Of a stretch of 64,000 bases of DNA, positions 20,318 to 33,469 are shown in pieces. The notes under the pieces are model-generated. The model did no database searches. It saw only the letters and a program-made list of their open reading frames with translations, and was not told where the DNA came from. The translations under genes and the position numbers were made by a program. Each line of letters begins with the position of its first letter. Position 1 is the first letter of the stretch. Source of the stretch: Nitrosopumilus ureiphilus (GTDB lineage Archaea > Thermoproteota > Nitrososphaeria > Nitrososphaerales > Nitrosopumilaceae); NCBI RefSeq assembly GCF_013407185.1, contig NZ_CP026995.1, forward strand, positions 1,757,913-1,821,912, given 5' to 3'.

Positions 20318-20410
20318 TATGTATTGATAGTCTCAAATGATATTATAATTTAATCAATAGTATTGAAAATAAAAGAAAATTCAAAAAGAAATGAAGAGAA
20401 AGGAGAAGGA

Positions 20411-21685
20411 TTACTCTTCAATTGGTTCTGAATCTTCTGATTCATCATTTATTGTGGCTTCTACTGTAGCCTCTACCTCAGGTGCTTCTACTGTAGCCTC
20501 TACCTCAGGTGCTTCTACTGTAGCCTCTACCTCAGGTGCTTCTACTGTAGCCTCTACCTCAGGTGCTTCTACTGTAGCCTCTACCTCAGGTGCTTCTACT
20601 GTAGCCTCTACCTCAGGTGCTTCTACTGTAGCCTCTACCTCAGGTGCTTCTACTGTAGCCTCTACCTCAGGCTCTTTTGCTGCCTTTGTTTTTTTGGTAG
20701 TCTTTTTCGTCTTTTTCTCAGCGTCTTCAGGATCTATAACACCTGCTTCACCTAGAGCAAAGATCACTTCTTCTTCAGGGTGGTGAGGACTATCTACCAT
20801 TCTGGCAATTCGTTTCTTACCTGATTTCTTAAAGTAGATTCTATAGGTACTTGTATGTGCAACTACGTTTCCACCAATAGGTCGTGTTGGATCTCCAAAG
20901 AAGACATCAGGCGATGCCATAACTTGGTTGGTTGCAATTGCAGCACAATTGTATGTCTCTGCAATTCTGGATAGCAAATGAACAAAATGATTTAGTTTTT
21001 GTTGTCTAACAGACAATGTTCCCCTTCCAAGATATTCAGCACGGAATAATCCAACTGCAGAATCTGCAACAATTAGTTTAACATTGTTTTCTTCAATTAT
21101 AGGACCGGCTTCTTCAAGAATTAACACTTGATGTGCACTGTTATATGCACGTGCAACTATGATGTTATCTAGAACTTTTTCTGGATCCATGTCATGAGCT
21201 TTGGCAATAGATACAATTCTTTCAGGTCTGAAAGTGTTTTCAGTATCAATGTACAAAACACTTCCTTCAAGGCCACCTTCTTCTTTAGTTTTTTGAACCA
21301 TCACAGACATTGTATGGGCAAATTGTGTTTTACCACAACCAAATTCACCATAGACTTCTGTTAATGCTTGAGTCTCAATACCACCGTCAAATAATGTATC
21401 AAGACAGTTTGTACCGGTTGTAATTTTACCAATACTTTGTCGGTGTTTGTAAATTTCAGTTGCACTAACAAAGTGTTTAGCAATTAATCCCCCATCAACT
21501 AAATGTTGTCGGGCTTTATTGACAATTTTTTCAGCAGTGTCCTTTTCCATTCCAGTTATTTCTGCAATTTCTACAGGGCCTCTGACGATGAGATCCATGA
21601 CGTTGTGGACACCTGCATCGGATAATTTTCTTGTAGTTACAGGACCTACGCCCTCTAAACTATCTAATCTTAAATCTTCTACCAT
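20411..21685 (-). CDS. radA: DNA recombinase RadA with repetitive acidic tail
   Basis: 424 residues. The N-terminal helix-hairpin-helix domain (LEGVGPVTTRKLSDAG), Walker A GEFGCGKTQ, Walker B LIVADSAV and L1/L2-region ATNQVMASPDVFFGDP identify the archaeal Rad51 orthologue, which forms filaments on single-stranded DNA. The core ends near residue 330. It then has a Lys-rich linker and eight copies of a nine-residue (A/E)PEVEATVE repeat before a short acidic end. Such a tail is absent from most RadA proteins. The gene's promoter abuts the left end of the mobile island. Confidence 0.97.
   Translation of the reverse strand: MVEDLRLDSLEGVGPVTTRKLSDAGVHNVMDLIVRGPVEIAEITGMEKDTAEKIVNKARQHLVDGGLIAKHFVSATEIYKHRQSIGKITTGTNCLDTLFDGGIETQALTEVYGEFGCGKTQFAHTMSVMVQKTKEEGGLEGSVLYIDTENTFRPERIVSIAKAHDMDPEKVLDNIIVARAYNSAHQVLILEEAGPIIEENNVKLIVADSAVGLFRAEYLGRGTLSVRQQKLNHFVHLLSRIAETYNCAAIATNQVMASPDVFFGDPTRPIGGNVVAHTSTYRIYFKKSGKKRIARMVDSPHHPEEEVIFALGEAGVIDPEDAEKKTKKTTKKTKAAKEPEVEATVEAPEVEATVEAPEVEATVEAPEVEATVEAPEVEATVEAPEVEATVEAPEVEATVEAPEVEATVEATINDESEDSEPIEE
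20457..20672. repeat. 27-base minisatellite, 8 copies, in radA
   Basis: Tandem in-frame units of GCTTCTACTGTAGCCTCTAC plus CTCAGGT, essentially identical, coding for the RadA tail. Base-level identity at synonymous sites points to recent expansion by slippage or unequal recombination. Confidence 0.95.
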
Positions 21686-21715
21686 ACCGTATGATACGGT
21701 ACCAGTACTTTATAA
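21685..21715 (-). promoter_or_regulatory. radA promoter with perfect palindrome
   Basis: A TATA element (TTATAAAG on the minus strand, 21708-21715) lies about 25 bases before the ATG, consistent with a near-leaderless transcript. Between them is TACCGTATGATACGGTA (21685-21701), a perfect palindrome around a central G that could bind a repressor at the initiator. The mobile island begins only about 6 bases farther upstream. Confidence 0.6.
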
Positions 21716-21788
21716 GAGTGTTGTTTCGAGGTTCTGTTACCTCTTAGGTGGGAAATGCTACTGTTACCTGTCGGTTGGTTAGTATCCT

Positions 21789-21995
21789 CTAGCTAATCCC
21801 ATAAGCACCATAGTGTTTCTGATCCCAAAAAATGGTGTTTTTGTTGTTACAGTTATTGCACTCATATTTGATTTCTATACAATCATTATCATCACATTGT
21901 TTGTTTTGTGCTATATGAAATACATCATTTGGCGGATACGCATCATAGGGATGACCACAATTAATACACGAAAATTTTCGTGGTTCATTTGTCAT
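21789..21995 (-). CDS. zinc-ribbon protein, unit 1 operon, third gene
   Basis: 68 residues with FSCINCGHPYDAYPPND, then CDDNDC and ECNNCNN: three cysteine pairs. Paralogous in layout to the next gene (22147-22386), which has the same GCDNC...PDD...CDNC plan. A 16-base perfect palindrome (CACGAAAATTTTCGTG, 21967-21982) lies inside the early coding region. Possible DNA- or RNA-binding accessory factor; function unknown. Confidence 0.6.
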   Translation of the reverse strand: MTNEPRKFSCINCGHPYDAYPPNDVFHIAQNKQCDDNDCIEIKYECNNCNNKNTIFWDQKHYGAYGIS

Positions 21996-22035
21996 AGTTA
22001 TAGTTCTTCTATACTAGTATATTACTATTAGGTAT

Positions 22036-22161
22036 ATGATAAAAGCAAATATCAAAACAATGGACAATCTAACAGAAGATCAACTAATGAAACTGATTGA
22101 AGGATTGAAAAAGATAGACGGATTTGAGTTTTTTGTATCCAACGGATTAATAATCCGATAA
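22036..22161 (+). CDS. 41-residue microprotein, homologue at 33029
   Basis: ATG 22036 gives MIKANIKTMDNLTEDQLMKL, then IEGLKKIDGFEFF and a short tail. A second small gene at 33029-33121 encodes a related start (MVKAYIKTHENITEEQLKKL), so the family is real. TATACTAGTATA (22010-22021) lies upstream, between this start and the divergent one at 21995. The 3' end overlaps the neighbour at 22147 on the opposite strand by 15 bases. Confidence 0.55.
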   Translation: MIKANIKTMDNLTEDQLMKLIEGLKKIDGFEFFVSNGLIIR

Positions 22162-22386
22162 CTCTCTATCCAAATCATCTTTTGAAAGACCAGCACTTAC
22201 GACAAATGAGTGACGTATGCACCAATAACGAACATTTCTAAAATCACAATTATCACATTCAATCTTTCTTTCAATACTTTCTCCACAACAGGTTTTCATG
22301 AAAAAATTAGTGTAACTGTCATCTGGTGAAATTGCAATCAGCTTACGACCGCAATTATCACAACCAAATTCTTTCTCTACCATCAT
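22147..22386 (-). CDS. zinc-ribbon protein, unit 1 operon, second gene
   Basis: 79 residues from ATG 22386, which forms an ATGA overlap with the preceding gene's stop; an ATG at 22410 is possible but would overlap more. Motifs FGCDNCGRKL, TCCGES and ECDNCDF form two zinc knuckles. Similar in plan to 21789-21995. Confidence 0.6.
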   Translation of the reverse strand: MMVEKEFGCDNCGRKLIAISPDDSYTNFFMKTCCGESIERKIECDNCDFRNVRYWCIRHSFVVSAGLSKDDLDRELSDY

Positions 22387-22553
22387 CTCATCCTCTTTTT
22401 TTGTTTCCAATCTTGGTTCTTATCTGATTGTCTTGGCTTGTCCCAGTATGGAGATTTACATTTTGGGCACACCATTGGTTTACCTGCATCTCTTGGAACC
22501 CAAGTATGGTTACATCTAATGCATTGATAACCTTTCAATGTTATTTCTGGCAT
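22383..22553 (-). CDS. 56-residue zinc ribbon, unit 1 operon leader
   Basis: ATG 22553: MPEITLKGYQCIRCNHTWVP, then CPKCKSPYWDKPR and a basic tail. CxxC-x(17)-CxxC zinc ribbon with the HTWVPR...SPYWDKPR signature shared with the gene leading the unit 2 operon (25226-25441). Such ribbon proteins fit a DNA-binding regulator of the divergent transposase promoter. Confidence 0.7.
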   Translation of the reverse strand: MPEITLKGYQCIRCNHTWVPRDAGKPMVCPKCKSPYWDKPRQSDKNQDWKQKKRMR

Positions 22554-22637
22554 AATTACACTATATACCTACCAGTATATAAGCACTAAGAGTAATGTTT
22601 ATTTAGATTAGTAGTATATTACTAATAGGTAAGTCAC

Positions 22638-23750
22638 ATGACAGAAAATAAAAGACAACAAAAAGGAAAGGAAATCGCACTCAAAAGCGACCTTATCCGC
22701 CTTTCTGATTATCATTATCATGTACACTCACAGACATCTAACAGAGATTATGATGTAATTAAGACTGGAACTGTCTGGACTTGTAACTGTGCAGATCATA
22801 AGTTTCGTCACGTATGCTGTAAGCATATTCATGCTGTAGAGTTCAGCTTGGAGTATAGAAAAGAAGTAAGAGAGCAAAACAAGGTTATCCTATCACCAAT
22901 AACTGTCAATTCGTGCTCATTCTGTCATTCTCAGAGTATCGCCAAAGCTGGAATTAGACATAACAAATCAGGTGATATTCAAAGATTCTCATGTCAAGAT
23001 TGTAAAAAGACATTCTCAATCAATCTTGGATTTGAAAAGATGAAGAATAGTCCAGAGGCAATTACAAACGCACTACAACTTTACTTTACAGGAGAATCCT
23101 TACGCAATGTTCAGAAATTCTTGAAATTGCAGGGAGTCAATGTCTCTCACAAGACAGTCTACAAGTGGATTGTAAAATATACCCGACTAATGAAAGAACA
23201 TCTAAACAAGATTACACCACAAGTCGGTGACGCATGGAGAGCTGATGAGGTTTACACAAGGATTAGAGGAGAGATGAAATACGTATTTTCTCTAATGGAT
23301 GATGAGACACGTTTCTGGATTGCACAGGAAGTTCTAAACAGGAAAGAGGGAGCTGATGCTTCAAGCTTGTTCAGACTTGGCAAAGAGATTACACAGACAA
23401 AACCTAAAGTGATTATTACTGACGGATTACATTCTTACTCGGAAGCTTATCGAAAAGAGTTTTGGACTGTACAAAGAGAGAATCGAACTATCCATATCCG
23501 TAATGTCCACTTGCAGGGTGACATGAATAACAACAAGATGGAGAGATTAAACGGTGAATTTAGAGACAGGGAAAAAGTAGTACGTGGAATCAAAAAGGTT
23601 GATTCTGTAATTATCGATGGCTATCAGCTATATCACAACTACGTAAGACCACACATGGCACTAGAGGGCAAGACACCAGCTGATCTTTGCGGTATTGACA
23701 TTAAAGGAGATAACAAATGGATGACGCTAATTCAAAACGCAAGCTTGTAA
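22638..23750 (+). CDS. SWIM-zinc-finger DDE transposase, unit 1
   Basis: 370 residues in three parts. Residues about 15-70 form a SWIM-type finger (WTCNCADH...VCCKHIHA, CxC-xn-CxH). Residues 92-125 form a zinc ribbon (SCSFCHSQ...FSCQDCKKTFS). The rest is an IS6/IS240-like DDE domain with WRADEVY (Asp), ITDGLHSY (Asp) and MERLNGEFRDRE (Glu), plus a YHNYVRPH tail. All catalytic residues are present, so it may be active. Very similar to 25541 and 29379. SWIM fingers are not a usual part of IS6-type transposases as I know them. Confidence 0.9.
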   Translation: MTENKRQQKGKEIALKSDLIRLSDYHYHVHSQTSNRDYDVIKTGTVWTCNCADHKFRHVCCKHIHAVEFSLEYRKEVREQNKVILSPITVNSCSFCHSQSIAKAGIRHNKSGDIQRFSCQDCKKTFSINLGFEKMKNSPEAITNALQLYFTGESLRNVQKFLKLQGVNVSHKTVYKWIVKYTRLMKEHLNKITPQVGDAWRADEVYTRIRGEMKYVFSLMDDETRFWIAQEVLNRKEGADASSLFRLGKEITQTKPKVIITDGLHSYSEAYRKEFWTVQRENRTIHIRNVHLQGDMNNNKMERLNGEFRDREKVVRGIKKVDSVIIDGYQLYHNYVRPHMALEGKTPADLCGIDIKGDNKWMTLIQNASL

Positions 23751-23815
23751 AATCCGCAGTAGAGTACGGGTACAAGATAGCTACTGTGATCAAAGTTATT
23801 ACTTGGTTTTTCTAA
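23717..23815 (+). CDS. 32-residue ORF overlapping transposase end, unit 1
   Basis: In the +1 frame of the transposase tail, ATG 23717 opens MDDANSKRKLVKSAVEYGYK, then IATVIKVITWFF. It runs 65 bases past the transposase stop. Unit 2 has a matching ORF at 26623 (31 residues) with the same plan: acidic start, SxRK, basic middle and a hydrophobic, Trp-containing end. Overlap with the transposase could force some of the similarity, but both continue well beyond it. Possible membrane-active or regulatory peptide. Confidence 0.45.
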   Translation: MDDANSKRKLVKSAVEYGYKIATVIKVITWFF

Positions 23816-24372
23816 TCTATAACGTGCGATGTAACTGTAAAAAATGTCAATTTGTTTGGGATCAAGTTGGATTTACTGATGAAAACGGAATACCTATTGA
23901 ATCTAGTTATCATTGTCCTAGATGTAAAACAGAAAATGGTGTTTCTATGAAAGATAGGATACGTGAAATATCCAAAAAGATGGGATTGAATGAACCCCAG
24001 TTTTATGAATGAGTTATACCAACCAACAGGTAACACTAACAATTTCAACCTAAGAGGTAACAGCACCTGTTTCGAGATTCTGTCAAATCTACGTCGGTTT
24101 TTCTCACTGTCAAAATCCGTCGGATCAGATTTGTCAAATTGATCAATAAGATAATCTGCTTTCTCAAGCATTCTTATCAATTCCCCCTTTTTGGGCAAGA
24201 CAGTACCAAATTTTTCAGAATGTTTAACTAAATAATACAAAGAACCGATCAGATGTTCATACAAATTTTCATTTAACTTCTTTAATCTTATCGCATCATC
24301 ATATTTTTCAATTGCCTTTCGTAAAATATCAATTTCGCTAGTCAAATTCTTTATGTTCCTGACGTTCGTCAA
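23812..24372 (-). pseudogene. protein B, 3' end replaced at unit 1 junction
   Basis: Residues 1-102 are helical and parallel the intact B gene at 28502-28810: LYEHLIGSLYYLVKH against LSEHLANSVKWLNHY, LPKKGELIRMLEKA against LPDQDKINEIVDKA, then RRRFDRISKQV against RRLYRASKQV. Just after SKQV (about 24067) the frame reads the complement of unit 1's inverted repeat and the opposite strand of the zinc-ribbon gene, giving a 79-residue nonsense tail. The natural 3' end was thus lost when unit 1 was joined here. Confidence 0.65.
23824..24012 (+). CDS. zinc-ribbon protein, end of unit 1
   Basis: 62 residues from GTG 23824 (VRCNCKKCQFVWDQVG), with a TTG seven codons earlier as alternative. C-x-C-x2-C and CPRC give a four-cysteine ribbon; the tail is basic and helical (MKDRIREISKKMG). 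Lies between the transposase and the right inverted repeat, so it is cargo of unit 1. Confidence 0.55.
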   Translation: MRCNCKKCQFVWDQVGFTDENGIPIESSYHCPRCKTENGVSMKDRIREISKKMGLNEPQFYE

Positions 24373-24868
24373 AAAATCTCTTTGTGAATTTGATATAATT
24401 TTTCGTTTTACGGAATTCTTTTAAATCTTCATCTTGTTGTTTTAACTTATTCTGTAATTTTGAAACAACTTTTGAGTTTTCTTTAGTTTTTTGAATAGAT
24501 TTTATAATTTTACTAACATCTTTACGAAATTCTACCTGATTAAGTGCTAAGGCTTCAAGATAATTCCATTGATCCATATCCTCTTTTCTTTCATATTTTA
24601 TAAAAAAACACAACATCTTATACAAATATTTTATCTCATTACTGGTATTAAGATGAGAAATATTTTCTTCCATATCATCTAAAACCTTAATCTTGTCTTT
24701 TGTATCACGTCTTATCCCATCAAATAGAAGAGGTATTGCATATGGGTCTTGCATTAATTTTCTGGTTATTTTAAGATCTAATTCTTCAGGAATATTCTTA
24801 AGAAAATCTTCATTTTCCAGACCTACTTGTTTGAAATATTCCCACTGTTCGTCAGTTAGTGTAGGCAA
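24338..24868 (-). CDS. helical/coiled-coil protein, unit 2 operon
   Basis: 176 residues, wholly helical and charged: LTDEQWEYFKQVGLENEDF, ITRKLMQDPYAIPLLFDGIR, then a long coiled coil (VVSKLQNKLKQQDEDLKEF). It resembles the 121-residue gene at 28794 of unit 3 in position and in an 'MxNDEAIxxI...'-like early segment, but homology is weak. It overlaps B by 35 bases and follows 24874 by five bases. Function unknown. Confidence 0.55.
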   Translation of the reverse strand: MPTLTDEQWEYFKQVGLENEDFLKNIPEELDLKITRKLMQDPYAIPLLFDGIRRDTKDKIKVLDDMEENISHLNTSNEIKYLYKMLCFFIKYERKEDMDQWNYLEALALNQVEFRKDVSKIIKSIQKTKENSKVVSKLQNKLKQQDEDLKEFRKTKNYIKFTKRFFDERQEHKEFD

Positions 24869-24873
24869 AAAGT

Positions 24874-25239
24874 TTACTCCTCAGTAACATCAGAGGCGTT
24901 GTAGTTATTCATATCATGTAGATGTTTGATATCAGGTTCATATTTTCTAATAATGTTTTCAAGGTGTTGAATATGTTGCATCATAGCACCATAGCTATTT
25001 TCTACATGTGTATTATTTTTGATCGTTTTTTTAGATTCAAGCGAAGTTACTGCCAAATTAGATAATGTTGTATTCTTGTTACGTTGTATATTTTGAATTT
25101 GGGATCTGGTATGTGGGTATTTGAGTAATGCAGACAAATTGAAATGAATGTTCTCTTCATTCTCGATTTGATCTATATTGAAAGAATCATGTTTATTTCG
25201 AGAACCAAAAATTTGATTTGTAGAATTATACTTCGTCAT
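24874..25239 (-). CDS. hypothetical protein, unit 2 operon
   Basis: 121 residues rich in Asn, Lys and His (FGSRNKHDSFNIDQIENEEN), with a helical C-terminus (MMQHIQHLENIIRKYEPDIK). No known domain. Overlaps the zinc-ribbon leader by 14 bases, so translation is probably coupled. Confidence 0.5.
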   Translation of the reverse strand: MTKYNSTNQIFGSRNKHDSFNIDQIENEENIHFNLSALLKYPHTRSQIQNIQRNKNTTLSNLAVTSLESKKTIKNNTHVENSYGAMMQHIQHLENIIRKYEPDIKHLHDMNNYNASDVTEE

Positions 25240-25441
25240 GAGATCTCCTCTTCTTTTTTAACATCATAGATGCTCTAGCTTGTTCAACCTCATTTTTTGC
25301 GAGGTCAATTCGTCTAGGTTTGTTCCAATACGCACTTTTGCATTTTGGACAAATTGCTGGAAGTTCTTCAGTTTGCAATCTAGGATACCATTCATGACTA
25401 CATCTATCACAACGATATGCCTGCTTTTCTATTACTGCCAT
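25226..25441 (-). CDS. zinc ribbon, unit 2 operon leader
   Basis: 71 residues: YRCDRCSHEWYPRL, then CPKCKSAYWNKPRRID and a basic helical tail (MMLKKKRRSHDEV). Clear homologue of the unit 1 leader (22383-22553). Position next to the divergent transposase promoter with its palindrome (25511-25527) fits a regulator. Confidence 0.7.
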   Translation of the reverse strand: MAVIEKQAYRCDRCSHEWYPRLQTEELPAICPKCKSAYWNKPRRIDLAKNEVEQARASMMLKKKRRSHDEV

Positions 25442-25510
25442 CTAATATACTAAGAATCATCATTACGTATAAACTTTCAGTTAACCTAACAAGTAAAGTT
25501 AATATAATGA

Positions 25511-25527
25511 TTTACCTAATAGGTAAA
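25511..25527. promoter_or_regulatory. palindrome TTTACCTAATAGGTAAA before transposase 2
   Basis: Eight-base arms around a central A, 13 bases before the transposase ATG at 25541 and in the divergent promoter of the zinc-ribbon operon. Related CCTAATAGG or CTAATAGG cores occur before the unit 1 transposase (22622-22629) and the microprotein at 33029. Confidence 0.6.
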
Positions 25528-25540
25528 CGTAAGAAGTAAT

Positions 25541-26659
25541 ATGACAGAAACAAACCCAAGACAAGAAAAAGGAAAACAAATCGCTTTGAAATCTGACTTG
25601 ATTAGAGTATCAGATATTCACTATCATGTCCACTCCCAAACTACTAACAGAGATTATGACGTAATCAAAGTTGGTTCTAACTGGACTTGTACTTGTCCTG
25701 ATCACAAGTTTAGAAAAGTTTGTTGTAAACACATTCACGCCATTGAATATTCTATCAGAATAAGAGAGGAAGTAAGAAAGCAAAATAAAATAACCATATC
25801 TCCAATTACCTCACAGGATTGTATTCATTGTAAATCTAGTAACATTGTCAAAGACGGATTACGCCACAACAAAAAAGGCGACATTCAGAAATGGTTCTGT
25901 AAGAATTGTAACAGTTACTTTACAATTAACATCGGCTTTGAAAAAATGAAGCATGACCCTCAAGGAATTACGATGGCTATGCAGTTATACTTTAGTGGTG
26001 AATCATTACGCAACGTTTCAAAGGCACTAAAATTAATCGGTATGGAAGTAACACACCAAACAGTTTACAATTGGATTGTAAAATATACAAAACTACTCAA
26101 AGAACATCTAAACAAGATTACTCCCGAAGTCGGCGACGCTTGGCGTGCTGATGAGGTATTTGTAAAGGTTAGAGGTGAATTGTGTTATGTTTTTTCAGTA
26201 ATGGATGATGAGACTCGTTTCTGGATTGCACAGGAAGTCGCAAACAGAAAGGAGGGACACAACGCAAGAGGTCTTTTACAAAAAGCCAAAGAGGTTACTG
26301 GAACTAAACCCAAAGTTTTCATCACTGACGGTCTAGGGTCATATGCTGAAGCATATCAAAAGGAATTTTGGACAGTAAAGAGACGAGATAGAACACTACA
26401 TATCAAACACATTCACCTACAAGGCGATATGAACAATAACAAGATGGAGAGATTGAACGGTGAGTTTAGAGACAGGGAAAAAGTAGTTAGAGGAATCAAA
26501 AAGGAAGATACTGCAATCATTGACGGTTATCAGATTTATCATAATTATGTTAGACCACATATGGGGCTAGACGGCAAGACGCCTGCCGAAGCCTGCGGTA
26601 TAGAGATTCAAGGAAGTAACAAATGGAAAACCCTGATTCAGAACGCAAGCAGAAGATAA
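25541..26659 (+). CDS. SWIM-zinc-finger DDE transposase, unit 2
   Basis: 372 residues with the same three-part plan as 22638: SWIM finger (WTCTCPDH...VCCKHIHA), zinc ribbon (CIHCKSS...WFCKNCNSYFT) and DDE core with WRADEVF, ITDGLGSY and MERLNGEFRDRE. All catalytic residues are kept. The zinc ribbon and SWIM region differ more from the other copies than the catalytic core does. Confidence 0.9.
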   Translation: MTETNPRQEKGKQIALKSDLIRVSDIHYHVHSQTTNRDYDVIKVGSNWTCTCPDHKFRKVCCKHIHAIEYSIRIREEVRKQNKITISPITSQDCIHCKSSNIVKDGLRHNKKGDIQKWFCKNCNSYFTINIGFEKMKHDPQGITMAMQLYFSGESLRNVSKALKLIGMEVTHQTVYNWIVKYTKLLKEHLNKITPEVGDAWRADEVFVKVRGELCYVFSVMDDETRFWIAQEVANRKEGHNARGLLQKAKEVTGTKPKVFITDGLGSYAEAYQKEFWTVKRRDRTLHIKHIHLQGDMNNNKMERLNGEFRDREKVVRGIKKEDTAIIDGYQIYHNYVRPHMGLDGKTPAEACGIEIQGSNKWKTLIQNASRR

Positions 26660-26718
26660 AGAAAATAGCCAAACTAGGCGTGAAATGTGCTTGGTTAGTT
26701 GTGGATTGGTTAGTTTAA
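26623..26718 (+). CDS. 31-residue ORF overlapping transposase end, unit 2
   Basis: +1 frame ORF from ATG 26623: MENPDSERKQKIKKIAKLGV, then KCAWLVVDWLV. It extends 59 bases past the transposase stop. Counterpart of 23717-23815 with the same layout of charged start, basic middle and Trp/Val-rich end. In unit 3 the equivalent ATG gives only MDYIDSKCK before a stop. Confidence 0.45.
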   Translation: MENPDSERKQKIKKIAKLGVKCAWLVVDWLV

Positions 26719-26749
26719 GTTATTACTTTCATAGATTAGAAAATGAGTT

Positions 26750-27523
26750 ATGACCTTTCATGAAATTTGGTCAATTGTTATTCCCTCAGTAGTTGGAGTT
26801 GTAGGTGTGTTAAGTGGTATTTGGATTGGTCAACATCTTTCTGACAGAAAAGAAGAAAGAAAAGAAAATGAAGTAATGGAAAAAATGAGATATTTGTTAA
26901 ATGCAGATTATACCTTGATTAATAGAATGATTACAAACTACGAAAAAAGCCTAAAAGAATGGAATGATGTAATAGCCAAAAATGATCAAATTGCAACACT
27001 GTATGTTTCAGATCTAAACAATATGAGAGATTTAATTGTAGCAATGGGAGTCAAATTAGGATACTTCACTTATTGGGACACGATAACTTCTAGTGGAAAT
27101 TTAATGAAATTAAAACCAGATGAATTGAGAATTGTTAATGCAACACATAATTCGGTTTCTCAAATAAGAAATATGCAAGATGAATCATTTAGAGTATTTT
27201 CTAATGATGTTCTAACTCAAATTTTTCAAAACACAAACATGAATCAAAGAATATCTATTTTGAGACAAAAAATTTCACTTTACATTACAAATTCACTAGA
27301 AGCATGTAGAATAATTAAAGAACATATGATAAATGTAAAACAAAATATTTCTTGGGTCGATTTAAAAACAGAGCCTATTTTAGCATACAAAGGAGTTTCA
27401 AACCAAAGTAATAAAATAAAAAAAGAAATTTTTGTTAGAGAAGATGGAGTAACAGTATATCCAAGTGGAATGGAAGTAGATAGAAAAGGCACAATATTGA
27501 AAATGGAGAAAAACAATGCCTGA
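26750..27523 (+). CDS. membrane-tethered coiled-coil protein, cargo pair gene 1
   Basis: 257 residues. One N-terminal membrane helix (IVIPSVVGVVGVLSGIWIG), a charged stretch (DRKEERKENEVMEK), then a long helical cytoplasmic region. A short beta-like C-terminal motif follows (IFVREDGVTVYPSGMEVDRK). No enzyme motif. It overlaps the next membrane gene by eight bases, so the two probably act together. Such pairs are common as accessory or defence-type cargo, but nothing here proves that. Confidence 0.65.
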   Translation: MTFHEIWSIVIPSVVGVVGVLSGIWIGQHLSDRKEERKENEVMEKMRYLLNADYTLINRMITNYEKSLKEWNDVIAKNDQIATLYVSDLNNMRDLIVAMGVKLGYFTYWDTITSSGNLMKLKPDELRIVNATHNSVSQIRNMQDESFRVFSNDVLTQIFQNTNMNQRISILRQKISLYITNSLEACRIIKEHMINVKQNISWVDLKTEPILAYKGVSNQSNKIKKEIFVREDGVTVYPSGMEVDRKGTILKMEKNNA

Positions 27524-28172
27524 CACATGCAAATTATGTACTTGGGGAACTATTCCCATCGTTGTAGGATATTTTGTAATTTATCTAATTACAAGATTTA
27601 TTGAAAAACAACCATTTGAACAATATTTGGAATATCAAGATAGCATATTGGCGGGGGTAGGAATTATTTTTGGTGTGTTAGGAGTGGTTACTTTTTACTA
27701 TATTGGAAAATATCATGATCATTCAAAAGAAATAATCAAAGCAAGATCTGAACATTCCGAGAATTTTAAAAAAATGATATTATTGTCGGAAATAAAAAAA
27801 ATTAACATCTCAGAAGAATTAAAGAGAGACATTGAACATGAAAAGGGATTTGAACCAGATTATAATGAACAAAAAGATATTGCAAAAGAAGTTCATAATA
27901 AGATTCTCAAACAAGGTATTATCATTGGAGGGTTTCTTACATGGATTTTGATAGGTTTTTTCACAAGTAGTTATGATCCAACATTAAACAATTTCATCAA
28001 CATAATTGCTGGATTGGCAACTGGAATAATTCTTTTTGTTGTAGGGTGGATTTTATATGATCATCTTCTGGAACGATTAACAGATATTTTAGATTTAGAT
28101 TATCAAGTTAATGTAAACATCAAAATTATAATTTACAAATTGGAAAAAACATTAGAAGGTCATTATGATTAG
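27516..28172 (+). CDS. four-helix membrane protein, cargo pair gene 2
   Basis: 218 residues: membrane helices at about 10-26 (IPIVVGYFVIYLI), 43-65 (ILAGVGIIFGVLGVVTFYYI), 134-150 (GIIIGGFLTWILIGFF) and 160-180 (IIAGLATGIILFVVGWILY). A charged loop of about 65 residues lies in the middle. The N-terminus has CKLC. No transporter or kinase motif is seen. Coupled to 26750-27523. Confidence 0.65.
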   Translation: MPDTCKLCTWGTIPIVVGYFVIYLITRFIEKQPFEQYLEYQDSILAGVGIIFGVLGVVTFYYIGKYHDHSKEIIKARSEHSENFKKMILLSEIKKINISEELKRDIEHEKGFEPDYNEQKDIAKEVHNKILKQGIIIGGFLTWILIGFFTSSYDPTLNNFINIIAGLATGIILFVVGWILYDHLLERLTDILDLDYQVNVNIKIIIYKLEKTLEGHYD

Positions 28173-28216
28173 AAACAAGTTTTAAAAGAACTGTTTTATT
28201 AAAAAACAAAAAAAGA

Positions 28217-28402
28217 TCAGAGTGGTCGTACATAAGTCCAATATGCACCTTTACCACATGATTTGATCGGTGGAAACGTATTTCCTTTCACCATTGAAAT
28301 ATCACCTTCATTAGAAGTAGGATGACAACCAATACTTCCATCAGTGTGACCTGCAAATTTGTAATGTCCAGGCAAAGTGCAAGTTTCGCCAGTTTTTGTC
28401 AT
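28217..28402 (-). CDS. YjzC-like small protein
   Basis: 61 residues from ATG 28402 (MTKTGETCTLPGHYKFAGHT); three more codons upstream are possible. The TGETC..PG.Y start and the KGNTFPPIKSCGKGAYWTYV end resemble the YjzC-like family, with conserved Cys/His. Function unknown. Lies at the right edge of unit 2. Confidence 0.55.
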   Translation of the reverse strand: MTKTGETCTLPGHYKFAGHTDGSIGCHPTSNEGDISMVKGNTFPPIKSCGKGAYWTYVRPL

Positions 28403-28501
28403 ACATATCAATAAAACTTTCAGATATAGAAAAGAGGGTAATTACATAATAACTCAATTAGTACGGTACTGCTCAAAACCCCACCCGACGAATTTTGACA
28501 C

Positions 28502-28810
28502 CTAGAATATCTGACGATAAGTTGACAGAACCTGTTTCGAGGCTCTGTAAAGTCTACGGTGTATACCGTCTTCTGTAAATTTTCGGTTGAAATCGTCGTT
28601 TAATTTGACTGCTTTATCCACGATTTCATTAATCTTATCTTGATCTGGTAATGGAATGTTGTTTGTCTTGCAATAATGATTTAACCATTTAACACTATTT
28701 GCAAGATGCTCTGATAATTCATATGTTAATTTTTCTACTTCTAAGGCATAATTGAGTTTTTCAAGAGCTGACTTCTCAATGTAAGTATCAGAGTTATCCA
28801 ATATAGTCAA
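28502..28810 (-). CDS. protein B (intact), unit 3 operon
   Basis: 102 residues, all helical: LEVEKLTYELSEHLANSVKW, then LPDQDKINEIVDKAVKL and RRLYRASKQVLSTYRQIF. It overlaps gene A by 17 bases. Its last codons are written over the conserved terminal palindrome of the unit, so the end sequence does double duty. Homologous to the truncated gene ending near 24067 and to remnants near 31017 and 33225. Confidence 0.65.
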   Translation of the reverse strand: MTILDNSDTYIEKSALEKLNYALEVEKLTYELSEHLANSVKWLNHYCKTNNIPLPDQDKINEIVDKAVKLNDDFNRKFTEDGIHRRLYRASKQVLSTYRQIF

Positions 28811-29159
28811 CCTTCCTGTTTTTGGATTCTTCTAGAGCCTCAGATAATTTCTTGATAGGAAGAAGTGTTTCAATGGATTCTTTTCGTTGTTGGGCTAATT
28901 CGTGTTTTACTGCTTCAAACTCTTTAGTATCAGGTAGTTTATCCAATAAGACTCTAATTCTGTTAGTTTCTTTCATCTCATTTTCTATTACAACATACAA
29001 TATCTTAATTGCAGTTTGTACATCAATAAGGTAATATTGTATTTTAGATATTGCTTCATCATTATTCATTCCATTTAGCATTTTTTGCCAGTTTTCATTG
29101 CTTAATGTTTTTGAAAAACCCATTACATCTTTCATAAAATTTTCAGGATATGTCGTCAT
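28794..29159 (-). CDS. helical protein A, unit 3 operon
   Basis: 121 residues: MTTYPENFMKDVMGFSKTLS, a helix with NDEAISKIQYYLIDVQTA, and a coiled coil (FEAVKHELAQQRKESIETL). No known domain. Its ATG follows the RHH stop directly (TAAATG), so it is cotranscribed and translationally coupled. Confidence 0.55.
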   Translation of the reverse strand: MTTYPENFMKDVMGFSKTLSNENWQKMLNGMNNDEAISKIQYYLIDVQTAIKILYVVIENEMKETNRIRVLLDKLPDTKEFEAVKHELAQQRKESIETLLPIKKLSEALEESKNRKVDYIG

Positions 29160-29303
29160 TTATTTTCCCCTCGTGTAACGTTCTAGTGCTTTTTCAACCA
29201 ATACAGACAAATCAATGTCCTCTTTGATAGCTTCAATCTTTGCCTTTTTCCACACATCGGGTCTAATCTTGATCGATGTAGTTGTTCTCTCTACTTTAGC
29301 CAT
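29160..29303 (-). CDS. 47-residue ribbon-helix-helix protein, unit 3 leader
   Basis: ATG 29303: MAKVERTTTSIKIRPDVWKK, then AKIEAIKEDIDLSVLVEKAL and a short basic end. Strand RTTTSIKI and two helices make a complete RHH domain (Arc/MetJ/CopG). It takes the place held by zinc ribbons in units 1 and 2 and likely binds the perfect palindrome at 29364-29381. Confidence 0.75.
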   Translation of the reverse strand: MAKVERTTTSIKIRPDVWKKAKIEAIKEDIDLSVLVEKALERYTRGK

Positions 29304-29363
29304 ATAATATAATACTACTCATAGTATATAATATTTTTCAACAGTGTTTAAGTAATAGTATTA

Positions 29364-29381
29364 CATACTACTAGTAGTATG
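29364..29381. promoter_or_regulatory. perfect palindrome over transposase 3 start codon
   Basis: CATACTACTAGTAGTATG is an 18-base perfect palindrome whose last three bases are the transposase ATG. Binding by a dimeric or tetrameric RHH protein here would block the transposase start and, with the divergent promoter 60 bases away, its own operon. Confidence 0.7.
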
Positions 29382-30491
29382 AATCAAAGAGAAACAAAAG
29401 GAAAACAAATTGCACTCAAAAGCGATCTAATCAGAGTATCAGACTATCATTATCATGTACATTCCCAGACTACAAACAGGGATTATGATGTTATCAAAAT
29501 ATACAATCAATGGCATTGCAACTGTGCCGATCACACTTTCAGAAAGGTATGCTGTAAGCACATTCACGCAATAGAATTTTCACTCAAAATCAGAGAGGAA
29601 GTGAGGGAGAGAAACAAGGTAACAATCGAGCCTGTAAGTGTGGATTCATGTAGATTCTGCCATTCAAAGAACCTAAAGAAATACGGCATCAGAAGAAACA
29701 AACACACGGCAATTCAGAGATTCTCATGTTCTGATTGTCACAAGACATTCTCAATGAATCTAGGCTTTGAGAAGATGAAACACAATCCTAAAGGAATCAC
29801 TACTGCCATGCAACTATACTTTTCAGGCGAGTCATTAAGAAACGTGGCTAAATCTTTGAAGTTATTGGGTATGGATGTAACACACCAAACAGTTTACAAC
29901 TGGATTAACAAATACACAAAACTCATGAATCAATACCTAGACAAGATAGTTCCACATGTTGGAGATGCTTGGAGAGCAGATGAGATTTATGTCAAGATTC
30001 GTGGTGAGTTGAAATATGTATTTGCAATGATGGACGATGAAACTCGTTTCTGGATTGCACAAGAAGTCGCAGACAGAAAGGAAGGACATGATGCAAGTAC
30101 GTTATTACAAAAATCAAAACAAGTTACACAGACAAAACCCAAAGTGTTCATTACTGATGGATTAGGATCATACCATGAAGCATACAAAAAAGAATTTTGG
30201 ACATTGAAAAGACAACACAGGACATTACACATCAGACACATTCACTTACAAGGTGACATGAACAACAACAAGATGGAAAGACTGAATGGAGAAATTCGTG
30301 ATAGAGAGAAAACAATGAGAGGAATAAAGAAAATGGATTCTGTAACACTAACAGGTTATCAACTGTTTCACAATTACATTAGACCTCATAGTGCATTAGA
30401 CAACATGACACCAAGTGAAAAATGCGGAATTACCATTAACGGTGATAACAAATGGATTACATTGATTCAAAATGCAAGTAGAGAAAAATAA
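29379..30491 (+). CDS. SWIM-zinc-finger DDE transposase, unit 3
   Basis: 370 residues, the same family as 22638 and 25541: SWIM finger WHCNCADH...VCCKHIHA, ribbon CRFCHSK...FSCSDCHKTFS, DDE residues in WRADEIY, ITDGLGSY and MERLNGEIRDRE, tail FHNYIRPHSAL. Intact. Fragments of closely related genes lie at 31064 and 31929. Confidence 0.9.
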   Translation: MNQRETKGKQIALKSDLIRVSDYHYHVHSQTTNRDYDVIKIYNQWHCNCADHTFRKVCCKHIHAIEFSLKIREEVRERNKVTIEPVSVDSCRFCHSKNLKKYGIRRNKHTAIQRFSCSDCHKTFSMNLGFEKMKHNPKGITTAMQLYFSGESLRNVAKSLKLLGMDVTHQTVYNWINKYTKLMNQYLDKIVPHVGDAWRADEIYVKIRGELKYVFAMMDDETRFWIAQEVADRKEGHDASTLLQKSKQVTQTKPKVFITDGLGSYHEAYKKEFWTLKRQHRTLHIRHIHLQGDMNNNKMERLNGEIRDREKTMRGIKKMDSVTLTGYQLFHNYIRPHSALDNMTPSEKCGITINGDNKWITLIQNASREK

Positions 30492-30728
30492 TTATGGTCT
30501 TAAATCAAAATTAACGAATTTCCATATTTTTCTATCATACAATATTTTACATTCTTCATCATAGGCAATGAATTTCTCATCTCCACATTCTGTAACACGT
30601 GGAGGATTATGATTATTAATCAAGGACATTAACTGTTCTATCAAAATACCATCCGCCCTATTTGGCAAACTAGATAATTTTTTTATAAATTCGTTTGAAG
30701 GTTCAAACGCTGGTTCGTCATTACTCAA
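30492..30728 (-). CDS. 78-residue hypothetical protein, downstream of pair
   Basis: From a TTG start at 30728 that overlaps the TGA of the upstream gene (TTGA): MSNDEPAFEPSNEFIKKLSS, a helix, then beta-rich ECGDEKFIAYDEECKILYDR and KIWKFVNF. It converges on the transposase with no spacer. With its 53-residue partner it has toxin-antitoxin-like size and layout, but no family is recognised. Confidence 0.5.
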   Translation of the reverse strand: MSNDEPAFEPSNEFIKKLSSLPNRADGILIEQLMSLINNHNPPRVTECGDEKFIAYDEECKILYDRKIWKFVNFDLRP

Positions 30729-30886
30729 TAAGGAAGTGATTGTACAATCTGTTTTATATCTTCCATTGTATATGGTTGGTTGGTTTCTGGATTTATTGCA
30801 GTGCCACTTTTCATACCTTCATCATATAATATGTCATCTGCTGGTGTCCAATATTTACATTGATTTAACCATTCTTGAGTTTCCAT
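30725..30886 (-). CDS. 53-residue hypothetical protein, first of pair
   Basis: ATG 30886: METQEWLNQCKYWTPADDIL, then YDEGMKSGTAINPETNQPYT and a helical end. Preceded at once by three direct repeats of ATATCG at eight-base spacing (30889-30910). The composition is gene-like; no named family. Confidence 0.5.
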   Translation of the reverse strand: METQEWLNQCKYWTPADDILYDEGMKSGTAINPETNQPYTMEDIKQIVQSLPY

Positions 30887-30888
30887 GT

Positions 30889-30910
30889 ATATCGATATAT
30901 CGACATATCG
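30889..30910. promoter_or_regulatory. three ATATCG direct repeats at 8-base spacing
   Basis: ATATCG occurs at 30889, 30897 and 30905, ending two bases before the TATA-rich stretch and starting three bases from the ATG of 30725-30886. Iterated half-sites of this kind suit cooperative binding of a small repressor. Confidence 0.5.
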
Positions 30911-30978
30911 ATTATATAATAATATGGTATGATTGCCTGATCATTCATACTTAATAGTACGGTACCGCCTAAATACCG

Positions 30979-31032
30979 TCAACCGATTGTTTACGCCTGA
31001 AACACCAACCGCAGGCTTGACAGAACCTGTTT
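30979..31032. repeat. 54-base direct repeat, copy 1 (copy 2 at 33191)
   Basis: 49 of 54 bases match 33191-33244. On the minus strand it ends a decayed protein-B gene (SKQVLSSLRLVFQA, then stop). It runs into the perfect hairpin TTGACAGAACC / GGTTCTGTCAA (31017-31046) with loop TGTTTCGA. Confidence 0.75.
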
Positions 31033-31063
31033 CGAGGTTCTGTCAAATCTACAGCACATCTCC

Positions 31064-31143
31064 CTAATTCTTCTCCGTGTCAAGTGTCGGCACATATCTT
31101 GCATTTTGAATGATAGTAAGCCACTTACCACTGAAAGATTCAT
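31064..31143 (-). pseudogene. transposase C-terminal remnant
   Basis: The minus strand reads FSGKWLTIIQNARYVPTLDT, then EKN and a stop at 31064. This equals the last residues of the three transposases (NKWxTLIQNAS). Nothing upstream of it resembles the rest of the gene. Confidence 0.6.
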
Positions 31144-31262
31144 GACTAGCGGCAGATACGTCGATAGACCTTTTTGAGGTTAGCGTCTATTTAACCGCCA
31201 AAACTTGTTTAGAATATTTAAGCAACATAACTGTTAAATCTGGATTCTGTTATACGTATAAC

Positions 31263-31406
31263 ATGGCATTAAGAGAAATCAAACCATTAGATGAGAAAGA
31301 TTGGAACACCCTAATCAGTGATTTAGAACAGGGTCAAACAGAAGAACAAATGAAGATTTTACAAAATTCTCTTGAGCATGCAAGTAAATTAAAAATTTCT
31401 CAGTAA
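31263..31406 (+). CDS. 47-residue putative antitoxin of GNAT module
   Basis: ATG 31263 directly follows the perfect palindrome GTTATACGTATAAC (31249-31262). Product: MALREIKPLDEKDWNTLISD, then LEQGQTEEQMKILQNSLEHA and a short Lys-rich end. Helical and acidic. It precedes the acetyltransferase start by four bases. Size, order and operator position fit a toxin-antitoxin antitoxin, though it is not a recognisable DUF1778 RHH protein. Confidence 0.55.
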   Translation: MALREIKPLDEKDWNTLISDLEQGQTEEQMKILQNSLEHASKLKISQ

Positions 31407-31410
31407 TTAA

Positions 31411-31926
31411 TTGTCAGTAATAGATTTTGATAAGATAGTTGTTACTAAGCTTAGTGATAACACTATTGGGATAAATTCTTTTGACAATAAAAATCTCGAC
31501 ATGATTAAACATATCAAAGAAGATGCATTACGTGATCAAGAGAAAAAAGTAGGCACTACATGGGTTTGGGTTTATGACAATAAAATCGCAGTAGGATATA
31601 TCTCTCTTGCAATGTTTTCAATTGACAGAAAGGAAATAATCAAAGAAAAAAGATCAAAATATCCATACAGTACAATACCTTCTTTGCTAATTGGTCAAAT
31701 TGCAACTCATAAAGATTATGAATGTAATTCCATAGGTTCGTCAATGATTTCATGGGCTTTTGCACAAGCCAAACAATATTCTGAGAAGATAGGGTGTAGA
31801 ACTGTTGCATTGCATCCGTTACAAGAAGTTATACCGTGGTATCAAGAGAAATTTAAATTTAAATTAATTAAAAGAGAAGACAAACAAGACATTATGTATT
31901 TTGATCTTTTACAAAAACAATCCTAG
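31411..31926 (+). CDS. GNAT N-acetyltransferase, TacT-like putative toxin
   Basis: 171 residues from a TTG start. GNAT features: strand VWVYDNKIAVGYISLAMFSI, a loop YPYSTIPSLLIGQIATHKDY (the 'P-x3-L-G-R/Q-L-A' stretch of TacT/AtaT toxins), the acetyl-CoA loop Y-E-C-N-S-I-G-S-S, and WYQEKFKFKLI at the end. Toxins of this group acetylate aminoacyl-tRNA. The acetyl-CoA loop (ECNSIGSS against the usual Q/R-x-x-G-x-G/A) is degenerate, so activity needs testing. Sits in the mobile island. Confidence 0.7.
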   Translation: MSVIDFDKIVVTKLSDNTIGINSFDNKNLDMIKHIKEDALRDQEKKVGTTWVWVYDNKIAVGYISLAMFSIDRKEIIKEKRSKYPYSTIPSLLIGQIATHKDYECNSIGSSMISWAFAQAKQYSEKIGCRTVALHPLQEVIPWYQEKFKFKLIKREDKQDIMYFDLLQKQS

Positions 31927-31928
31927 TT

Positions 31929-32050
31929 TTATTTACTTGCATTTTGAATCAGTGTCAACCATTTGTTATCTCCTTTAATCTCCATACCGCATTTCTCACT
32001 AGGTGTTTGTCCATCTAATGCACTATGAGGTCTGATGTAATTGTGCTGAG
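31929..32050 (-). pseudogene. transposase C-terminal remnant 2
   Basis: Minus strand reads QHNYIRPHSALDGQTPSEKC, then GMEIKGDNKWLTLIQNASK and stop at 31929: the last 40 residues of the SWIM-DDE transposase. The match ends abruptly near 32050. Confidence 0.8.
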
Positions 32051-32098
32051 ACTCACAGCTCCCGTTAAAATAAATACCAGACATTCACAAGTTAATAC

Positions 32099-32341
32099 AT
32101 GAACAAAATTACAATTCTTGGAATCTCAATAGCTGTAATCATTGCACTTGCATATGTAGGATATTCATCATCAGAAAAAGATGCTGCAGAGAAACAAAAA
32201 CTGTCAGACCTGATAGATTCACAAAACCTGTTATTTGACATTATTAATCTTGACACCCTGGATTACAATGATGATGGAAATTCAATCACAATGTTCAATG
32301 CAAAATATGCACTAAACCCTGAAAAAAACGACATCTACTAA
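32099..32341 (+). CDS. small membrane-anchored protein
   Basis: 80 residues: N-terminal membrane helix (ITILGISIAVIIALAYVGYS) and a short polar extracytoplasmic part with DYNDDGNSITMF. It lies 17 bases before the secreted gene at 32359 and probably shares its transcript. No known family. Confidence 0.55.
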   Translation: MNKITILGISIAVIIALAYVGYSSSEKDAAEKQKLSDLIDSQNLLFDIINLDTLDYNDDGNSITMFNAKYALNPEKNDIY

Positions 32342-32358
32342 GAGATAATCCTCAAAAC

Positions 32359-32922
32359 ATGGTTGTAATATTTCCAATATTTACCTCATCAGCTTATGCA
32401 GACAACGGATTCTATTCATACTATAAGGGGGAATGTAGTTTTGAATGTCTAACAGTACCGATAAGGGATGACGTAAGATCAGAAGCTTCAGGTGCAGGAG
32501 CACAAGTCTTGAAACTGCTAGGCTATGACATTATTGCAGACACACATGTAGCAAAGAATCCAGACATTCTGAAAACATACGACAAGGTAATCTTACTGCA
32601 CAATGAATATGTCACACAGGAAGAGTTTGATGTAATCACATCACACCCAAAAGTAATCTATCTCTATCCAAATGCACTGTATGGGAAGGTAACATATGAT
32701 GAGAACTCAGATACTATCACTCTGGTTCGTGGTCATGGATACCCTGAAACAACAATCGCAAACGGCTTTGACTGGGAATTTGATAATACACCAATGGAGT
32801 ACGATTCAACGTGTGAAAACATACAATTCTACCCAATTAATAACGGAATAATGCTGAATTGTTATCCTGAGCAGTTAATGACCTATGACGGCTCTTTGTT
32901 GAAGACAATCAAAGAATTCTGA
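32359..32922 (+). CDS. secreted thaumarchaeal-type hypothetical protein
   Basis: 187 residues; very short signal sequence (VVIFPIFTSSAYA|DN). The mature part has CSFEC, a Rossmann-like stretch (AGAQVLKLLGYDII...VILLHNEYVTQEEFDVI...VIYLYPNALYG) and a C-terminal Cys pair. It could be a decayed or catalytically inert hydrolase-like domain. Function unknown. Among transposon remnants, so possibly mobile cargo. Confidence 0.6.
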   Translation: MVVIFPIFTSSAYADNGFYSYYKGECSFECLTVPIRDDVRSEASGAGAQVLKLLGYDIIADTHVAKNPDILKTYDKVILLHNEYVTQEEFDVITSHPKVIYLYPNALYGKVTYDENSDTITLVRGHGYPETTIANGFDWEFDNTPMEYDSTCENIQFYPINNGIMLNCYPEQLMTYDGSLLKTIKEF

Positions 32923-33028
32923 CACATAAAGATGGTTCTGTCAACTTGACGGTAAAAAATTCCACCGGTTAACCTTAGGTTGATCTGCTGAATAGTTCTC
33001 CAATACAGGACATGCCTAATAGGCAAAT

Positions 33029-33121
33029 ATGGTTAAAGCATATATAAAAACACACGAAAACATAACAGAAGAACAACTCAAGAAACTAACCAATTTTACT
33101 CTCAAACGGGTGTGTGCCTAA
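33029..33121 (+). CDS. 30-residue microprotein, homologue of 22036
   Basis: MVKAYIKTHENITEEQLKKL, then TNFTLKRVCA. The first 20 residues parallel the unit 1 microprotein; the end diverges and is shorter, so it may be truncated. The palindrome TGCCTAATAGGCA lies just upstream (33013-33025). Confidence 0.45.
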   Translation: MVKAYIKTHENITEEQLKKLTNFTLKRVCA

Positions 33122-33190
33122 AAACAGGTTTTGATCTTCATGGCTATGATTTTTAGGAATGAAATTTAGTGCGATACTGGAAAAATCATA

Positions 33191-33244
33191 TCAACCGATT
33201 CTTTACGCCTGAAATACCAACTGTAGGCTTGACAGAATCTGTTT
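33191..33244. repeat. 54-base direct repeat, copy 2
   Basis: Matches 30979-31032 at 49 of 54 positions. Complement codes LKQILSSLQLVFQA and stop, a protein-B end. The palindrome's second arm is lost here (TGTTTTAAAAAATG). This marks the right edge of the island, about 40 bases from S30e. Confidence 0.7.
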
Positions 33245-33286
33245 TAAAAAATGATCGCAAAATGATAAAATTTTAACAAGAGTCGA

Positions 33287-33469
33287 TTAACGTCTCTTTC
33301 TTCTTTGTCCTGGTTTGTTCTGACCAGGAAATCTACCTAGGACAAATCTCTTTTTGAAGTTACTTTTGTTTCTAAGACTAGAACTAGTACCCACAATCTT
33401 TCGTCCTTCAACTTTTGGTGTCTGTCCTCTTACTTTACCTGCTTTGGTAAGTGAACCGTGTGTTGCCAT
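33287..33469 (-). CDS. rps30e: 30S ribosomal protein S30e
   Basis: 60 residues: MATHGSLTKAGKVRGQTPKV, a basic middle and C-terminal RFPGQNKPGQRRKRR. Size and GSLTRAGKVRxQTPKV core are diagnostic for eS30, the only Fubi-like-free archaeal form. Confidence 0.93.
   Translation of the reverse strand: MATHGSLTKAGKVRGQTPKVEGRKIVGTSSSLRNKSNFKKRFVLGRFPGQNKPGQRRKRR

Follow-up and report, generated by a model that had tools for sequence, protein, structure and literature searches.

Promoter-directed transposition by DDE enzymes is known from bacteria, where sigma-A promoters are the targets, and integration guided by a promoter complex is known from yeast. The Mutator-like DDE elements TnGBS, ISLre2 and ISKra4 insert upstream of promoters with constant spacing, and contact with the transcription initiation machinery has been proposed for them; TnGBS and related IS lie 15-17 bp from the -35 of sigma-A promoters and are mostly oriented (PMC3942029). 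Integration of yeast Ty3 is guided by TFIIIB/TFIIIC (cited in PMC3942029). ISAjo2 of the IS1202 family targets the XerC sites of dif/pdif and generates a 5-bp duplication (PMC10132070). In the IS6 family, a 2021 review describes clade h with a zinc finger, clade i with a zinc finger and an extra N-terminal domain, and one member with a passenger, ISDsp3 (PMC7986276). Composite DNA transposons with passenger genes went undetected in archaea in a 2019 survey (PMC6563490).

We analyzed a 64,000-nt stretch of Nitrosopumilus ureiphilus DNA (GCF_013407185.1, NZ_CP026995.1, positions 1,757,913-1,821,912 of the forward strand; the window), in which four head-to-tail, cargo-carrying DNA transposons, E1-E4, are stacked at one 8-bp spot by the radA promoter. 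From sequence comparison we consider it highly probable that these are four IS6-related, passenger-carrying transposons inserted serially at the same 8 bp by the radA core promoter, and that their family integrates at a fixed spacing from TATA. Each has IS6-type inverted repeats (GGTTCTGTCAA...), and neighbors are separated by an identical 8-bp target-site duplication, TGTTTCGA. The strict end motif occurs four times forward and four times in reverse within the array, and once elsewhere in the 64 kb, which delimits four elements.

The array begins beside radA, whose minus-strand ORF has its start at 21685. Its TATA box, CTTATAAAG (21708..21716, minus strand), is conserved in 54 genomes of the genus and lies 5 bp from the duplicated target, of which the radA-proximal copy (21722..21729, 8 bp) is the current one. 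E1 (21730..24067, 2338 bp, plus strand) is bounded by the inverted repeats GGTTCTGTTACCTC and GGTGCTGTTACCTC, with 86% complementarity between its 51-bp arms. The next copy of TGTTTCGA (24068..24075) leads to E2 (24076..28532, 4457 bp, plus strand), a further copy (28533..28540) to E3 (28541..31027, 2487 bp, plus strand), and another (31028..31035) to E4 (31036..33239, 2204 bp). E4 is decayed with both ends retained; it holds 3’ transposase remnants (31098-31126 and 31927-32068, minus strand) and an ORF judged by eye to be acetyltransferase-like cargo (31411-31926). Past the outermost target copy, TGTTTTAA (33240..33247), the sequence up to S30e (33287-33469) matches the empty sites of sister species. 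The junctions are palindromic, ACAGAACCT-GTTTCG-AGGTTCTGT, but a dif/Xer-like interpretation was rejected, as half of this arrangement is missing at the outer ends and empty sites contain one 8-mer.

An earlier note on this DNA had described three intact paralogous transposases in a head-to-tail array, each facing a divergent gene for a small DNA-binding protein, and these descriptions were borne out. E1, E2 and E3 each encode a transposase with a SWIM motif, a zinc ribbon and an IS6-like DDE domain (22638..23750, 25541..26659 and 29379..30491, all plus strand), together with the divergent gene and passenger genes. The transposase ORFs are 370-372 aa long and ~72% identical, and fall on different branches of the transposase tree. 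The SWIM residues C50, C52, C62 and H64 and the zinc-ribbon residues C94, C97, C120 and C123 are invariant in 35/35 aligned relatives. The core is RNase H-like and matches DDE_Tnp_IS240 (E 6e-16 to 5e-19); scores against NCBIfam transpos_IS6 were borderline (115.9, 124.7 and 125.9 bits, cut-off 125). Membership of TnGBS/ISLre2, with their Mutator-type, IS256-like transposase, was rejected: the IS256 model scored 25-39 bits against a cut-off of 150, and the best families were IS6/IS240. A PDB sequence search gave no match, and no plasmid homologue covered 80% of the query, all being below 60% identity (24-31% among the matches listed).

The proposal that this combination belongs to no standard IS family requires qualification. 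The catalytic part, the GG...cTGT inverted repeats (GG tips with CTGT) and the 8-bp duplication are those of IS6, whose clades h and i are already listed (PMC7986276). The array transposases, with a ribbon and an N-terminal SWIM invariant in 35 rows, are 370 aa long, against ~450 aa in the description of clade i. Unlike IS26 and other IS6 elements, the array family combines SWIM with a zinc ribbon, mostly carries passengers and inserts in a promoter-directed manner.

The divergent leader of E1 (22381..22553) encodes a zinc-ribbon protein, MPEITLKGYQCIRCNHTWVPRD..., as does that of E2 (25226..25441), and the leader of E3 (29160..29303) a ribbon-helix-helix protein, all on the minus strand. E1 cargo comprises two Cys-rich proteins of one cluster (22147..22410, with homologues in L012 and L209, and 21789..21995; both minus strand). 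In E2, a probably helical protein without a confident family (24874..25239, minus strand) precedes an ORF (24338..24868, minus strand) with a homologue in an element of another species at another target (L069); two putative membrane proteins, judged by eye, are encoded on the plus strand (26750..27523, without a Pfam family, and 27516..28172). E3 carries another probably helical protein without a confident family (28794..29159, minus strand). The ORFs previously named protein B are present (23812-24372 and 28502-28810), but their C-termini are junction sequence, because each ORF reads across the inverted repeat and 8-mer and ends in the adjoining element.

Across the family, elements have a median length of 3.2 kb against a 1.1-kb transposase gene. 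Most are therefore not IS consisting of a transposase gene only, and, in contrast with the 2019 survey (PMC6563490), they carry passengers, including restriction-modification genes. Other defence-like genes are also found in cargo. PADLOC gave a single weak match in the window cargo, to a type I specificity subunit, and no resolvase family appeared among the reported matches of the 127 cargo ORFs scanned. Zinc-ribbon, AbrB-like and ribbon-helix-helix leaders all occur at radA, and classes are mixed at other shared targets; the leader protein as target selector is thus unsupported.

A search for similar elements at unrelated loci yielded 74 insertions with resolved ends at many genes, in Nitrososphaeria, Methanoperedens, Bathyarchaeota and Thermoplasmata, and exact 8-bp duplications were present at both ends in all 74. 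In the first set, defined ends with exact duplications were found at 48/78 loci, compared with 2/150 mismatched pairings; ends were unresolvable in ~40% of first-set copies and in a larger share of later sets. Neither the defined ends of the array elements nor promoter-directed insertion had been recognized in the earlier note.

The position of the TATA box was scored with the octamer TTTAWAWR, at a strict (>=7/8) and a looser (6/8) threshold. At the strict threshold, 32/74 insertions had it at a distance of exactly 5 bp to the duplication, whereas no other offset among the 41 gave more than 5 insertions (range 0-5); at the looser threshold the count at 5 bp was 54/74. These counts include related insertions at one gene, which are not statistically independent. 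The pattern was discovered on the first set of loci. The second set agreed more loosely, with TATA offsets of 5-7, and 7/10 insertions of the third set had TATA at exactly 5. Distant lineages likewise showed offsets of 5-7, and a minority of sites (e.g., L050, L191 and L327) had no clear TATA at 5 bp. The gene lies on the TATA side: where a start codon was found on a single flank, this was the TATA flank in 25 cases and the other flank in 1 (p 8e-7), and the usual distance between TATA and start codon was 31-36 nt. Insertions occur in both orientations relative to the promoter. Because the duplication ends 5 bp before the TATA start, the BRE/TATA core and the gene remain intact. Targets are often housekeeping genes and include radA, TFB, EF-1alpha, thermosome and rpL12. 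With most resolved insertions ~5 bp upstream of a TATA box, the family resembles a mobile element that seeks out promoters and inserts next to essential genes while leaving them unbroken.

Insertions that disrupt genes are certainly selected against, and random insertion with survival only in harmless intergenic places would need no targeting. We regard this explanation as extremely improbable, as single-nucleotide spacing is not easily set by selection and one nucleotide was hit in 18 species. Moreover, classical IS6 elements of the same order (207-225 aa, n=16, from four genomes only) showed no such peak, with TATA at 5 bp in 0/16, or 2/16 at the looser threshold (Fisher p 4e-4 and 1e-5).

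Comparison of the radA-S30e interval among relatives revealed an element end at the identical nucleotide in 18/54 genomes and no element at radA in 36/54. The 8-mer at this site varies between species, yet the two ends of any one resolved element share the same 8-mer, indicating separate insertions at radA. A preference for TGTTTYRR as the cause of specificity was rejected; the motif reflects sequence conservation upstream of radA, and the 8-mers of other insertions are unrelated to it. The persistent association with radA and the defence-like cargo might instead suggest a host system, for radA regulation or defence, with a recruited transposase, rather than a mobile element. This would correspond to the earlier suggestion of a transposase-like enzyme used for something else, and we judge it very improbable. 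Empty sites and exact target duplications argue strongly against it, decayed copies exist, copies adjoin many other genes, and cargo and leader class vary while the target stays. The alternative suggestion of a regulated transposon fits the defined inverted repeats, the exact duplications, the empty sites in sister species and the recurring divergent DNA-binding genes.

We infer that the transposase finds its target through contact, probably by an N-terminal zinc domain, either with promoter-bound TBP/TFB or with the TATA/BRE DNA. Targeting may not depend on the SWIM as such, because three SWIM-less ribbon transposases likewise lie beside a TATA; a further search for SWIM-less copies gave one resolved case, L327, without a clear TATA. 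Transposition would follow the replicative route of IS6, and the divergent DNA-binding protein would repress the transposase. A variant of this promoter-proximal model, in which the sequence or shape of TATA/BRE is read directly with no transcription factor, is a real possibility, although we incline against it. The fixed spacing and the A-rich 5-bp stretch that precedes TATA at insertion sites are consistent with direct reading, and the main radA transposase clade, with 11/12 rows at radA, suggests that extra DNA sequence is recognized. Some targets also share a downstream palindrome, GTACNGTANNRTACGGTA, but two other promoters bearing it in this genome are unoccupied, and it was rejected as sole determinant. 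Against direct reading, AT-rich genomes contain many TATA octamers, but the identified targets are genuine promoters, typically followed by a start codon 31-36 nt downstream.

Pursuing the analogy with Ty3, the family might be an archaeal counterpart that uses an IS6 enzyme and docks on the TBP/TFB pre-initiation complex, its subclades being adapted to individual promoters (radA, a secreted protein and others) and array order recording successive insertions; we give this extended proposal as much credence as doubt. Both integrate beside a TBP-type promoter complex and leave the gene usable, protein contact being conjectural for the array family; Ty3, however, uses a retrotransposon integrase at Pol III tRNA genes of a eukaryote. 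TnGBS-like elements, with Ty3 the nearest precedents, share the fixed promoter distance and the intact gene, but have another transposase family and bacterial sigma-A targets, as opposed to archaeal TATA at 5 bp in both orientations. Like IS1202/ISAjo2, the array family has no additional genes for targeting, inserts at a constant distance of 5 bp from a site bound by protein and has a second repeat within each end, whereas the XerC targets, 5-bp duplication and transposase of ISAjo2 are different. According to a limited literature search, this would be the first clear archaeal case of promoter-directed insertion, with single-nucleotide spacing in several archaeal phyla, and it sits in the enzyme family of the clinically important IS26. 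TBP/TFB-guided integration becomes a testable question in a simple reconstituted transcription system, and the promoters of radA, TFB and EF-1alpha become recognizable docking sites for mobile cargo.

Serial insertion predicts that each new copy would land at the promoter-proximal 8-mer, producing layered arrays, and all inner junctions are indeed the radA-proximal 8-mer. An array could also be built by duplication, by homologous recombination or by joining circular units in the manner of IS26; a single 8-mer between neighbors is equally expected from circle insertion. IS26 units form arrays. Recombination of IS6-family elements with existing copies is possible (PMC7986276). We nevertheless consider such an origin unlikely: E1-E3 are not simple duplicates, because their cargo and transposase lineages differ, and separate elements of other species use the identical site. 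Adjacency is also seen outside this array, as ~14 other resolved elements adjoin an element end on the far side of their target-site duplication.

The array occupies 21722-33247, with radA (minus strand, start 21685) on one side and S30e (33287-33469) on the other. The host genome is a single contig of 2.17 Mb and has Nitrosopumilus genomes as its neighbours. A strict end motif occurs in the array four times in forward and four times in reverse orientation; the rest of the 64-kb window has one further copy. The array copies pair up to give four elements: E1 (21730-24067), E2 (24076-28532) and E3 (28541-31027), each with an intact transposase, and E4 (31036-33239), in which only 3’ remnants of the transposase are left. 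Adjoining elements are separated by a single TGTTTCGA copy, and the right outer flank of the array is TGTTTTAA. At every element end a second, related repeat lies ~27-28 bp inward, as if the transposase had two sites per end. The final minus-strand cargo ORFs of E2 (23812-24372) and E3 (28502-28810) continue across both inverted repeat and 8-mer and enter the adjoining element, so that their stop codon comes from whatever adjoins. Near its 3’ end, radA itself carries an in-frame 27-bp tandem repeat (EVEATVEAP) of about 8 copies (20403-20726).

The transposase has an IS240-type DDE core and scores at the cut-off of the NCBIfam IS6 model. Its SWIM CxC...CxH and zinc-ribbon CxxC...CxxC motifs are invariant among 35 relatives, and its AlphaFold model (mean pLDDT 84) finds DDE transposases and retroviral integrases as top fold matches. 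Outside E1-E3, the same genome holds one more full copy (at 1616691); of three remnant matches, one lies in E4. Relatives were found in Nitrososphaeria, Methanoperedens, Bathyarchaeota and Thermoplasmata; a plasmid search returned only distant IS6 proteins, none matching over 80% of the query.

A GGTTCTGT-like inverted-repeat pair with an exact 8-bp duplication was present at 48 of 78 loci, compared with 2/150 mismatched flank pairings. Together with two further sets, minus one duplicate, the first set gave 74 distinct insertions. We joined the flanks of all resolved insertions and matched a TATA octamer at offsets 0 to 40 from the duplication. The octamer started exactly 5 bp away in 32/74 insertions at 7 of 8 matches (54/74 at 6 of 8), and in 0-5 insertions at any other single offset. 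This rule was discovered on the first set; of those that came afterwards, the second agreed more loosely (offsets 5-7) and the third had TATA at exactly 5 bp in 7/10. Classical IS6 elements of the same order (207-225-aa transposases, 8-bp duplications) had it in 0/16, or 2/16 under looser matching. Where a TATA was present and the flanks were of sufficient length, a gene started on the TATA side alone in 25 instances and on the opposite side alone in one; starts typically lay 31-36 nt from the TATA, as in archaeal promoters whose transcripts have a short leader or none. Elements sat at these sites in both orientations. Targets, named by eye from recognisable sequence, included radA, TFB (5 cases), a secreted protein, a conserved small protein, thermosome, EF-1alpha, rpL12 and biotin synthase. 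The elements upstream of TFB (TFIIB) genes (L049, L077, L093, L206, L215) belong to different branches of the transposase tree; TFB, the target of five elements, may also be the factor that guides them.

An element end lay at exactly the same nucleotide upstream of radA in 18 of 54 genus genomes; the other 36 lacked one, most with the site unbroken into S30e. The 8-mer here is the host’s own and varies among species (TGTTTTAG, TGTTTTGA, TGTTCTAG, TGTTTGAC), yet is identical at both ends of every resolved element, indicating separate insertions. The site is also used in Nitrosarchaeum (L040), other thaumarchaeal lineages (L041, L048, L051, L293) and another family (L199), and in one species (G054) the element is reversed. 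In the main radA clade of the transposase tree (support 99/92), 11/12 rows are at radA; rows at two other recurrent targets cluster as well. In two genomes (L154 in G009, L155 in G010), element-like ends on the radA side enclose 4.8 and 10.7 kb, in which the cargo ORFs are large and the transposase is mostly or wholly gone. The radA-promoter palindrome GTACCGTANNATACGGTA recurs at two promoter-like places in its own genome, both without an element (778794 and 1178226; near 1501 in L187 and 1500 in L188), and a similar motif is present in another recurrent target (L059, L060, L069, L080, L228). The palindrome may be the operator of a small regulon.

Insertion probably proceeds as follows. The transposase would carry the element ends to a promoter and join them on the upstream side of the TATA; with the upstream edge rebuilt by the 8-bp duplication, BRE and TATA would stay whole. 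Because each insertion would regenerate the promoter-proximal target copy, the next element would land between the promoter and the older element. Such serial insertion would explain why each junction has a single common 8-mer, why E1-E3 come from different lineages and why the outermost E4 has decayed; we infer the insertion order of the array elements. The outermost TGTTTTAA fits a first insertion that predated the site’s change to TGTTTCGA. At the target, the transposase may read either TBP/TFB or the DNA itself.

An IS6 review already recognises zinc-finger clades h and i, and one passenger-carrying member (PMC7986276); a thaumarchaeal mobile-element survey detected no passenger-carrying composite transposons in archaea (PMC6563490). 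The passages of PMC3942029 consulted describe promoter-targeted DDE elements of bacteria and note an AT-rich target for archaeal ISH6, giving no fixed TATA spacing for it. The literature searched, with most subscription journals outside its scope, yielded no archaeal precedent for promoter-targeted insertion.

Among 65 elements whose transposase is full-length, 48 also had a small divergent gene of a recognisable class (zinc ribbon, AbrB-like or RHH), and several of the remaining elements had similar small proteins missed by that search. Since these classes swap at one and the same target, a role in regulating the transposase is more likely for this gene than one in picking the site. Element length (median 3.2 kb) implies that most carry passengers. 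Among 127 cargo ORFs scanned, Pfam matched proteasome-like hydrolases (7), DNA methylases (5 and 4), HNH nucleases, GmrSD, type I specificity, helicases and Fic, and PADLOC reported restriction-modification families and mad2. The proteasome-beta-like NTN-hydrolase genes recur as cargo (L013, L077, L110 and others, with the 7 Pfam hits), and cargo clusters 18 and 28 resemble them.
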